From Clostridia bacterium (GTDB lineage: Bacteria; Bacillota; Clostridia; UMGS1883; UMGS1540), in the NCBI GenBank assembly GCA_017442155.1, contig JAFSAU010000051.1, positions 1 to 64,000 of the forward strand: 64,000 nucleotides of DNA, read 5' to 3'. Position numbers and translations under genes: made by a program. Positions 14,156-34,251 of the stretch are shown in pieces (the stretch's first letter is position 1; the number at the start of each line of letters is the position of its first letter). The notes beneath the pieces are model-generated. The model saw only the letters and a list, made by a program, of their open reading frames with translations. It did no database searches and had not been told where the DNA came from.

Positions 14156-14217
14156 TGCTACGCTAACATAACAAGGTTTTCCGAAAAACCCGAGCGTTTA
14201 AGAGGTGTACTCGAACA

Positions 14218-14252
14218 GTAAACGGAGCAGAGAAAATCACTGCCCCGTTTCA
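14218..14252 (-). terminator. Terminator-like hairpin after the transposase gene
   Basis: GTAAACGGAGCAG (14218-14230) pairs with 14240-14252 with two imperfect positions. It lies just beyond the stop of the leftward transposase gene. Confidence 0.5.
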
Positions 14253-14421
14253 CTAGTATAAAAACAATCTAATTCCCATTTTAAGGGATTTGTGTCTATG
14301 TATTCCCATATTTTCTGATAATCTTTTTCACCACGAATTATATGGTCGTGATAAGACCTTTGCCAAAGGGTGTTGCCGAATTTATTTGTTGTGTATGATT
14401 TTAATTGACCGATTACGTTTT

Positions 14422-14447
14422 GTAGGGGAGGGGTTCCATCCCCTCCC
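14422..14447 (+). repeat. REP-like palindrome inside the RAYT gene, copy A
   Basis: 26 bases beginning GTAGGGG, with arms GGGAGGGG and CCCCTCCC around a 6-base loop. It lies in the transposase coding sequence, which stays open through it (a Gly-Gly-Asp-Gly-Thr-Pro-Pro stretch). It points toward copy B, 138 bases away. Confidence 0.75.
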
Positions 14448-14585
14448 GAATCTTCTAAAATCACAATTAAATGTATATGATTTGGCATAATTACATATTT
14501 ATCAATCGAAATTCCAATATAATTACCGTTAATATATTGTATTGATTTTTCAATTTCTTTTCCTATTGATGTTACTGTGTTTTTC

Positions 14586-14611
14586 GGGAGGGCACAGAGG
14601 CCCTCCCCTAC
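14586..14611 (-). repeat. REP-like palindrome inside the RAYT gene, copy B
   Basis: On the minus strand the 26 bases begin GTAGGGG and contain GGGAGGGC and GCCCTCCC arms around a 6-base loop. Same length and leading heptamer as copy A (14422) and the intergenic copy at 34226, with a different palindrome core of the same form. Confidence 0.75.
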
Positions 14612-14724
14612 AATGTTTGACAATATACATTTCCTGTTGTGTGTGCATATCGTAACAAAATATGCCCCAGGTGCCCCATAATCATATCCTTTTAATCTTG
14701 TTGTCTTTCGTTTTGGTAAATCCA

Positions 14725-14913
14725 TTATTTCACCCTGCTGTTATCAATACCATACTCTAACAAAATATTAATCAATTCATTTCTTGACCGATTTGTTTCT
14801 TCGGATTTTGTTCTCACAGAAAATGTTTTATATCCATCTTCGCCTTTTAAATCTACTGTCCTTAACGGTACACCTCTTAGTTTGTTAGGGTTTCGTGAGG
14901 TTCTTATTTTCAC
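14725..14913 (-). CDS. Small protein, possible ribbon-helix-helix DNA-binding
   Basis: A 62-codon frame whose GTG start overlaps the decarboxylase stop (GTGA) and whose TAA shares a base with the transposase ATG. The middle segment GYKTFSVRTK followed by RSRNELINILLEYG resembles a strand-helix-helix of the RHH fold, where NELINxxL is the second helix. It could be an Arc-like regulator of the transposase or an unrelated small protein. There is no separate ribosome site, so expression would depend on coupling. Base composition matches the transposase rather than the decarboxylase, suggesting both arrived together. Confidence 0.5.
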   Translation of the reverse strand: MKIRTSRNPNKLRGVPLRTVDLKGEDGYKTFSVRTKSEETNRSRNELINILLEYGIDNSRVK

Positions 14914-16238
14914 AATTCTTTTACGACGGTGCACTGCGTGATGCCGTAATAAGCAAAACACCGCACAGCTGCTTCGTCTATCCGTTCTCCGGCCGCGACA
15001 ATGGGCACAGCCGGCGGGCAGGACAACGTCGGAGATGCAAGAATACGACCCATGCTTTCTTCGGCGGGAATATCCTCCCGGGGTACAAACAGTGCCTCCC
15101 GGATACGAAGGACCTGTTCTCCTTTGCCCGGCAGAGGCGGTTTTTCCGTAATTTCCGGCCGTTTCGGAACAGCGGCCAGTACCCTTTGCAGATGGTCAAG
15201 GCCCTCCGCACCTGTTTCCGGCGTTACCATCAGCACGAGAAAATCCGGGTCGGCAAACTCGCAGATGATATTTGCTTCGGCCAGAAGCCGTGCCAGATCC
15301 GTGCCCCGGTATCCGTAGGCTTTTGCCGCGACAGTAAGCTTTTGTGGCTCATCCCCCACAAAGTAGAATCCCCGGTTTTCCAGATTTCTCCTTGTTTTTT
15401 CCACCGCCGGCAGAAAGGATGCCAGCCGTTCGGTGTGCCCGGCCAGATACGGATTCGCCTTATCCAGCGACTGCAGTATCAGATAGGACGGGCTGGTGGA
15501 GCCAAACAGGGCCAGTGCCCGCCGGGCCTCGTTTTTAAGAACCGGAGGGGCCGACGGTGAAATATGCAGATACGCGCCGCCGGTGAGCACGGGCAGGGTT
15601 TTGTGGGCAGAATCACAGCACATATCTGCGCCCAAATCTATAGGATGACGGCTTTCAGGAAGAAACTTCAGGTATGCTCCGTGGGCGTTATCCACTAAAA
15701 ACAACAGATTGTGCCGACGGCAAACGGCGGCCAGGGCCCGGATATCCGAGGTCTGGCCTAAATAATCGGGACTGGTAATATACAGAGCAGTCGGCTTTTC
15801 CGGTAGTTTCAGTATCGCAGCTTCCACCGCTGCCGCATCCGCGCGGCAGGAAAGGTAGTCCGTGCCGCGGCAATATAGCCACGACACTGTAGCATCTGCC
15901 ATGCACGCCGCGCTGATAAAGCTCCCGTGGGCGTTCCTGCCTGCCAGAATATGAAGCGGTTTTCCCTGTGCCTTGGCATGAAGGGCGGCCAGGTACACCA
16001 TGGCCCGGATGCCGTGGGAGGACCCTTCGGTGGAATACAGCGTTTTACAGCCAAACAAGGCCCCGGCGTTTTCCTCGCTTTCCCGGATGATGCCGGAGGG
16101 CGCATACAGACTGTCCGCGCCGTCAATTTCAGTAATATCCCCGCTCCATGCACCGGTACCCTTGTGGCCGGGCATATGGAGACGGAGGGCGTTTCTTTCT
16201 GTGTATTCCTTCACAAAATTGCAAATCGGTGTCCGCAT
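14910..16238 (-). CDS. Orn/Lys/Arg decarboxylase family PLP enzyme
   Basis: Likely decarboxylates arginine, lysine or ornithine for polyamine synthesis, or acts as a related PLP enzyme. The 442 residues match the short Gram-positive class (YaaO/SpeA type) without the N-terminal wing domain. MPGHKGTG is near residue 22, the EGSSHGIRA phosphate loop near 71, DNAHGAY near 187, and the PLP lysine in SAHKTLPVLTG near 215. It starts three bases after the SCIFF maturase stop; in Clostridia this pairing of genes is common. Substrate cannot be told from sequence. Confidence 0.88.
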   Translation of the reverse strand: MRTPICNFVKEYTERNALRLHMPGHKGTGAWSGDITEIDGADSLYAPSGIIRESEENAGALFGCKTLYSTEGSSHGIRAMVYLAALHAKAQGKPLHILAGRNAHGSFISAACMADATVSWLYCRGTDYLSCRADAAAVEAAILKLPEKPTALYITSPDYLGQTSDIRALAAVCRRHNLLFLVDNAHGAYLKFLPESRHPIDLGADMCCDSAHKTLPVLTGGAYLHISPSAPPVLKNEARRALALFGSTSPSYLILQSLDKANPYLAGHTERLASFLPAVEKTRRNLENRGFYFVGDEPQKLTVAAKAYGYRGTDLARLLAEANIICEFADPDFLVLMVTPETGAEGLDHLQRVLAAVPKRPEITEKPPLPGKGEQVLRIREALFVPREDIPAEESMGRILASPTLSCPPAVPIVAAGERIDEAAVRCFAYYGITQCTVVKEL

Positions 16239-34143: not shown

Positions 34144-34186
34144 AAAACGGCTTTCTTATGAGACGTGCTTTTAAGGATAGTAATTT

Positions 34187-34224
34187 AAAAGGCAGAAACG
34201 AGCGATTTCGTTTCTGCCTTTTAT
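34187..34224 (+). terminator. Terminator after DUF2752 gene
   Basis: A perfect 15-bp stem AAAAGGCAGAAACGA (34187-34201) with 34208-34222, able to act in both directions. Confidence 0.8.
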
Positions 34225-34225
34225 C

Positions 34226-34251
34226 GTAGGGGACGATTCACGAATCGCCCG
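34226..34251 (+). repeat. REP-like palindrome, intergenic copy
   Basis: 26 bases beginning GTAGGGG with arms GACGATTC / GAATCGCC around one base. Same length and leading GTAGGGG as the two copies inside the RAYT gene at 14422 and 14586, though the palindrome core differs. 34252-34355 shows nothing else. Confidence 0.6.

Follow-up and report, generated by a model that had tools for sequence, protein, structure and literature searches.

The window, as we call the whole 64-kb stretch of DNA that was analysed, carries at 14237..14725 on the (-) strand a RAYT (REP-associated tyrosine transposase, or TnpA-REP), a small transposase-like gene from a gut bacterium. The frame is unbroken over 162 aa, with the HUH motif formed by H83/H85 and the catalytic tyrosine, Y142, located in YIDTNP; H83, H85 and Y142 are invariant among 54 aligned sequences of RAYT relatives. 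The Pfam Y1_Tnp model scores 23.1 against the protein, barely above the cut-off of 23, and NCBIfam NF047646 (REP_Tyr_transpos) scores 69.3 (E 3e-19), below the cut-off of 80. The profile match to E. coli TnpA-REP 4er8 is 1.3e-10, and 4er8 is also the best fold match of the AlphaFold model (pLDDT 83.8), with a TM of 0.62 and an rmsd of 2.5. The protein thus combines the HUH motif and the single catalytic tyrosine on an IS200-like fold that characterize RAYTs, and the family's tie to GTAG-tagged REPs is seen in its two internal REPs and in relatives with internal or flanking REPs. The curated Y1 model yielded 0 matches when run against the window's own genome.

Two GTAGGGG-tagged 27-nt hairpins lie in frame within the gene. 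Site 1 (14585..14611, (-), GTAG tag at 14611) encodes residues 39–47, in the turn between strands 36–39 and 48–51, and site 2 (14422..14448, (+), GTAG tag at 14422) encodes residues 93–102, in the loop between the HUH strand 83–90 and helix 101–116. Each folds into an 8-bp hairpin with a 6-nt loop (z -3.5 and -4.0, respectively), and both sites are surface loops in the predicted fold. The two REPs are mutually inverted, their hairpins pointing inward and their GTAG tags outermost, which is the geometry of a REPIN. The window contains four GTAGGGG heptamers compared with 5.5 expected, that is, no excess over chance. However, a perfect 8-bp hairpin follows two of the four, compared with none in 150 simulated 64-kb windows (order-1 Markov), and a chance origin of these hairpins was rejected. 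A third REP, at 34226..34251 (+), has a different and imperfect arm (hairpin z -2.7). The preliminary description, which had reported a RAYT gene with an intact frame and two in-frame palindromes, agrees with this picture, as does its proposal that the REPs settled in surface loops and were taken up into the coding sequence; the predicted fold places both sites in loops, and RAYTs without internal REPs exist. Its term "head to head" captured the inversion but is misleading, the tags being outermost and the hairpins inward, and its third element at 34226 is real but not of the same form.

The RAYT gene lies in a unit bounded by terminal inverted repeats (TIRs). The downstream repeat, TAAGAGGTGTACTCGAACAGTAAA (14199..14222, (+)), has a 12-nt exact inverted match to the upstream end and was extended by eye, and the upstream repeat, TAAGAGGTGTACCGTTAAGGACAGTA (14854..14879, (-)), carries three mismatches to the consensus, with 0 matches in 100 shuffles. 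A search of the loci for such repeats (GGTGTACTCTAAAGGACAGTA) gave 24 matches, compared with 0–2 for shuffled patterns. Three full units, those of L028 (1751–3562), L034 (1842–3532) and L063 (1702–3548), comprise a reverse-oriented gene for a secreted-looking protein (Cu_amine_oxidN1 and NPCBM), a small regulator (RHH or HTH_3) and the RAYT. The window unit (14199–14879) appears to be a shortened, internally deleted form of ~0.68 kb in which the upstream repeat is joined to a ribbon-helix-helix gene remnant. This remnant is a 78-aa ORF (14725..14961, (-)) that ends at the RAYT start and is related by tblastn to L034, L027, L036, L037, L050 and L069; Pfam gave no match to the ORF. The intact small gene of L034 is RHH_1, and such genes precede several related RAYTs.

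Several further features of these units were noted. Just outside the third REP, 34160..34193 (+) resembles by eye the left end of a TIR-bounded unit, with ~6 mismatches in 21 positions, beyond the search cut. Outside the repeats of L028, L029, L034, L037, L067 and L095 an A-tract and an inverted stem are visible by eye, an arrangement that would fit insertion of the unit into an intrinsic-terminator loop. Two 628-bp segments carrying the same RAYT (L077 2949–3576 and L078 1228–1855), on two contigs of one Desulfotomaculum assembly, are 99.5% identical and represent either recent movement of the RAYT unit or an assembly duplicate. An empty site of the window unit was not encountered: the same-family genomes carry the decarboxylase, but the fetched 1.5 kb yielded no comM. 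A search for plasmid relatives gave four weak matches.

Distribution and types of the internal REPs

The internal pair was followed in 81 genes, the window gene and the best 80 of 162 relatives found in genome contigs with the window protein as query, a sample biased to the window's clade. In a lenient scan, 66 genes carry REPs at both sites, 5 at site 1 alone, 7 at site 2 alone and 3 at neither; the corresponding numbers in a stricter scan are 61, 6, 8 and 6, genes with one or zero detected REPs being retained in both. Decayed partner REPs can be recognized by eye at site 1 of L031, L049, L060, L071 and L079 and at site 2 of L085 and L088. The site-1 loop of L067 is plain, and L070, which lacks an internal REP, has flanking REPs that resemble the window's type. 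The two inverted REPs, with tags outermost as in a REPIN, span 158–245 bp (median 190 bp, 65 genes). In a phylum-wide sample that offsets this bias to the clade (L107–L124, matches >90 bits only; 73 of 299 genomes gave some match, mostly weak), none of 18 RAYTs has both internal REPs and 14 have neither by a position rule, although one of the 14, L117, has a site-2-like REP just outside the cut. The pair therefore marks the window's clade and not RAYTs at large. The comparison of homologues with and without palindromes did not bear out an ancestral Gly-rich segment lacking the palindrome, the outcome that the preliminary description had named as counting against its proposal.

Translation of site 1 uses frame 0 in 69 of 71 genes, and one of the two others (L027) is frame-broken. 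At site 2 all three frames are used (46, 22 and 5 of 73 genes), so more than one gain or re-gain is likely. Two unusual arrangements were observed. In L084 a ~100 bp insert splits the site-2 REP and the frame is broken, and L067 (3001–3498) has a REP at site 2 and a second one at a third place, before the WQ motif, with the tags facing each other.

The two REPs of a gene match each other. With GTAG excluded, their mean similarity is 0.912 within genes and 0.662 between genes (68 genes, without L067, whose second REP sits elsewhere), and the maximum reached in 10,000 permutations was 0.716. A similarity >0.85 is found within 51 of the 68 genes, compared with 6% of cross-comparisons at 60–70% core identity. 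Around 17 arm types occur, and their distribution tracks RAYT clades. A tree of 78 proteins was computed with the REP columns excluded (L027, L051 and L095 omitted, many forks unresolved). On this tree the types, whose labels come from regular expressions that pool near variants, are distributed clade by clade, with a minimum of 18 changes at site 1 and 17 at site 2. The same type label is assigned to both sites in 65 of 66 two-REP genes, and in the one exception, L034, the arm is the same but the foot is mutated. L038 and L049, which lie apart in the tree among ACGGCG genes, both have the CCGGCG type; each time it is present at both sites with the partner bases changed. The ACGGCG arm has a recurrent G-A mispair at pair 11–20: of the distinct sequences, 15 of 33 at site 1 and 7 of 27 at site 2 show it. 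A mispaired bulge is required by the E. coli enzyme, according to the text of PMC8266576.

Constraint on the REP segments

Among 33 distinct 27-nt site-1 REPs the arm covariation is 0.463, compared with 0.136 after shuffling (reached in 0 of 500) and 0.026–0.168 in slid controls. Since the REPs were detected via their hairpins, paired-cell percentages and pairing counts are inflated, but the variety of paired changes is not produced in this manner. Synonymous and non-synonymous differences were compared in 27 disjoint gene pairs, the test omitting L027, L051, L060, L084, L095, L067 and L052, genes without both REPs and pairs with REPs of unequal length. The synonymous difference is 0.099 in the REP codons and 0.632 elsewhere in the gene, about six-fold lower, and it is below that of the rest of the gene in 25 of the 27 pairs (Wilcoxon 9e-6). 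The low synonymous difference indicates that the constraint acts on the DNA. The non-synonymous difference is 0.087 in the REPs and 0.166 elsewhere, such that the two kinds of change are nearly equal within the REPs, whereas the core, with a dN/dS of 0.04–0.17 between the window gene and five relatives, is under strong protein-level constraint.

REPs elsewhere in the genomes and a deleted second copy

Forty-nine genomes were searched for exact copies of three arm types, each genome being assigned a type by the RAYTs sampled from it. CCGACG copies are present in all four genomes with a RAYT of that type and in 2 of 45 others, and CGATTC copies in 7 of 8 matched genomes and 17 of 41 others. CAGGGGC copies are present in all five matched genomes compared with 7 of 44; however, in G018, G029 and G031 these are only the internal pair, and after subtraction of the internal copies the association is weak (2 of 5 compared with 7 of 44). 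For the three types together, with internal copies subtracted, dispersed copies are found in 13 of 17 matched and 26 of 130 unmatched genome-type cases (Fisher 6e-6), and hidden RAYTs may stand behind some of the 26. Two observations count against regarding the internal pair as the enzyme's own substrate, the reading preferred below. Dispersed exact copies of the internal type are absent from G000 (the window's genome), G018, G029 and G031, so no other substrate is visible there, and G053 has 35 CCGACG-type REPs though the RAYT sampled from it (L097) is of another type. In the window's whole genome no GGGAGGG-type palindrome was found besides the internal pair, but additional GTAGGGG palindromes with other arm types are present. 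The genome search for GTAGGGG palindromes that the preliminary description had called for was thus positive for other arm types and negative for the exact internal type.

Many opposite-strand pairs of CCGACG-type REPs, ~90–125 bp apart, were seen in G053, G037 and G028; in the pairs examined the spacers resemble one another and contain a separate CCCCGGCGAA hairpin, so that these pairs form a REPIN family shared by several genomes. Twenty REP regions were fetched, mostly picked as opposite-strand pairs, so that an outward-tag geometry among them is no test. Two (L140 and L152) are RAYT loci and the other 18 have weak RAYT matches <50 nt or none. In the dispersed pairs examined, the spacer is not the RAYT-internal segment, which was rejected as the source of these pairs. 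Only the REP arms are common to the dispersed copies, and in this respect the internal pair departs from a REPIN, which is dispersed as a many-copy unit.

REPs are also found beside the genes. A flanking REP lies within 200 bp of only 12 of the 61 genes with both internal REPs. An inverted REP lies downstream of 4 of 6 genes scored without site 2, compared with 6 of 69 with site 2 (Fisher 0.002), and in the two site-2-negative genes without a downstream REP (L062 and L084) site 2 is imperfect or split. All three site-2-only genes of the phylum sample have a forward REP upstream. From these single-site genes, the REP bracket seems to be kept, either outside or inside the gene.

The window's genome contains a second RAYT copy (L017/L166, G000 C38:68336-68660), which consists of residues 1–38, one double-foot REP and then the part that follows site 2. 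Compared with L029, exactly the segment between the REPs is gone, the HUH motif included. Among the double-foot REPs examined in 33 genomes, this is the only one within a RAYT remnant. The text of PMC6006769 suggests that central deletion of an inverted pair can yield double-foot REPs. The deletion is only suggestive of RAYT-driven mobilisation, as near-palindromic repeats also recombine by slippage.

Relation to known systems and interpretation of the pair

In-frame REPs within tnpA-REP genes have already been described for "subclass 2.4" in the text of Quentin 2018 (PMC6006769), in which this subclass is given as Bertels group 4 and its insertion region is viewed as peripheral and perhaps of little effect. 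The window gene resembles subclass 2.4 in containing an in-frame REP in the loop that joins the HUH strand to the following helix, and in the absence of a C-terminal extension. Of the motifs NH[IFV]H, WQ and YIxNNP printed for the subclass, the window protein has NHIH and WQ, and its YIDTNP is one place off; site 2 corresponds to the variable REP-derived insertion between strand 3 and helix C. Unlike the subclass as described in that text, the window's clade has a pair of REPs at fixed positions, one of which precedes the HUH motif, and the two are oppositely oriented, of matched type and under DNA-level constraint. The two inverted REPs with outer GTAG tags are like a REPIN or BIME (as presented in the texts of PMC3116915 and PMC6006769), but here the pair is inside a coding sequence, its spacer is the HUH part of the RAYT gene and its span is ~190 bp. 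The text of PMC3733652 treats REPs that lie within genes and also RAYTs with REPs or TIRs on their flanks. The Rickettsia palindromic elements and the intragenic REPs discussed there are likewise palindromes in frame in genes; however, those genes are assorted, whereas here the host is the gene of the presumed acting enzyme and two sites are conserved. TIRYT/TIRtron elements of the same text share the RAYT gene between long inverted repeats, but the units described here combine TIRs with internal REPs and a small regulator and, in the three relatives examined, with a secreted-protein gene. The portions of PMC2817692 and PMC8266576 that were available make no mention of internal REPs. No matched internal REP pair was recognized in the open-access text that the literature searches covered. 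In-gene REPs as such are therefore not new; their organisation as a matched inverted pair at fixed sites was not found in the literature text covered.

At the level of sequence comparison, the clade displays fixed sites and orientation, an intact frame, pairs of the same type, paired clade-wise turnover, synonymous constraint confined to the REPs, strand-specific features on opposite strands and frequent copies of the same type elsewhere. We consider it rather probable that the RAYT keeps its cognate REP pair inside its coding sequence, instead of or besides its flanks, as an internalised REPIN and a putative DNA substrate of its own. The broader proposition, that this is a Clostridia RAYT clade with an obligatory internal REPIN, whose coding sequence is its own putative substrate, selected as DNA, with ~17 specificities and both sites changing together, is in our judgment evenly balanced. 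Two tolerant surface loops flanking the HUH core would house the inverted REPs, GTAG tags outermost, and the RAYT may recognize them as folded single-stranded DNA, a binding step suggested by the cleavage of GTAG hairpins by TnpA-REP of this family (text of PMC8266576). The preliminary description had likewise proposed a gene that carries its own ssDNA substrate, and the pair now appears a likely one. Recognition, perhaps with strand exchange among REPs, would keep the pair intact and in step with the specificity of the enzyme; arm covariation and synonymous constraint argue for maintenance at the DNA level, and the within-gene match together with types that track clades argues for co-evolution of enzyme and REP. 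The loop peptides would be by-products. Candidate advantages are that enzyme and substrate would always stay linked, that the gene could regulate itself through DNA, or that it could be mobile. The absence of the pair from all 18 RAYTs of the phylum sample counts against this reading, as it indicates that RAYTs in general do not need it.

The internal REPs might instead be neutral passengers, inserted in cis into the nearby RAYT gene and surviving only as in-frame loop insertions with no role. That the sites are loops and some internal REPs have decayed fits such an origin, as do the view of the subclass 2.4 region cited above and the REPs reported within unrelated genes of other species (text of PMC3733652). 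Yet the constancy of the two sites and of their opposite orientation in 66 of 81 genes, the matched types, a synonymous constraint far above that of the rest of the gene, the covariation and the persistence of the pair where no other copy remains make passengers unlikely. We assign a similarly low probability to homogenisation alone, in which gene conversion, driven by the RAYT or by recombination, would overwrite both sites with whatever REP type the genome currently has and no selection would act on the pair. The internal type is often the dispersed type, and odd variants are common to the inside and outside of genes (L085, and L097 with two variants in both), such that gene conversion could keep the types matched without a selected role, a point against the substrate reading. 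However, G000, G018, G029 and G031 keep the pair without dispersed exact copies, and conversion leaves the retention of both sites and of their orientation unexplained.

Control at the level of the mRNA, by hairpins that bind RAYT or slow translation, is very unlikely although both palindromes would also fold in RNA. At site 1 the coding strand bears the strand-specific features of the REP (loop, mismatch), but at site 2 these features, like the GTAG tag, belong to the non-coding strand; even when the GTAG tag is left out of the comparison, site 1 resembles the REP strand of site 2 more than the complementary strand in 65 of 68 genes, with the reverse in one and a tie in two. The mRNA therefore cannot be the common target, and a single mRNA target was rejected; the mRNA-binding variant put forward in the preliminary description is not supported. 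A function of the loop peptides, for example in DNA contact, with the palindromes as a by-product, is the most improbable of these alternatives. Site 2 adjoins the HUH strand and G40 is nearly invariant among relatives, but the loop columns are far more variable than the core (mean entropy 2.47 and 2.42 compared with 1.46 bits), site 2 is read in three frames, and peptide function was rejected on this entropy and on the near equality of non-synonymous and synonymous differences within the REPs.

REPs and RAYTs are widespread, and two questions about them are by what means a RAYT selects its REP and what lets such genes persist. Should the internal pair prove to be the cognate substrate, each gene would carry enzyme and target in one sequence. 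The recognition code would then be testable across ~17 arm types without guessing which REP belongs to which enzyme, and the gene set would be a ready-made key to RAYT-REP recognition. It would also represent an unusual form of dual coding, in which constraint on the DNA dictates the loops of the protein.
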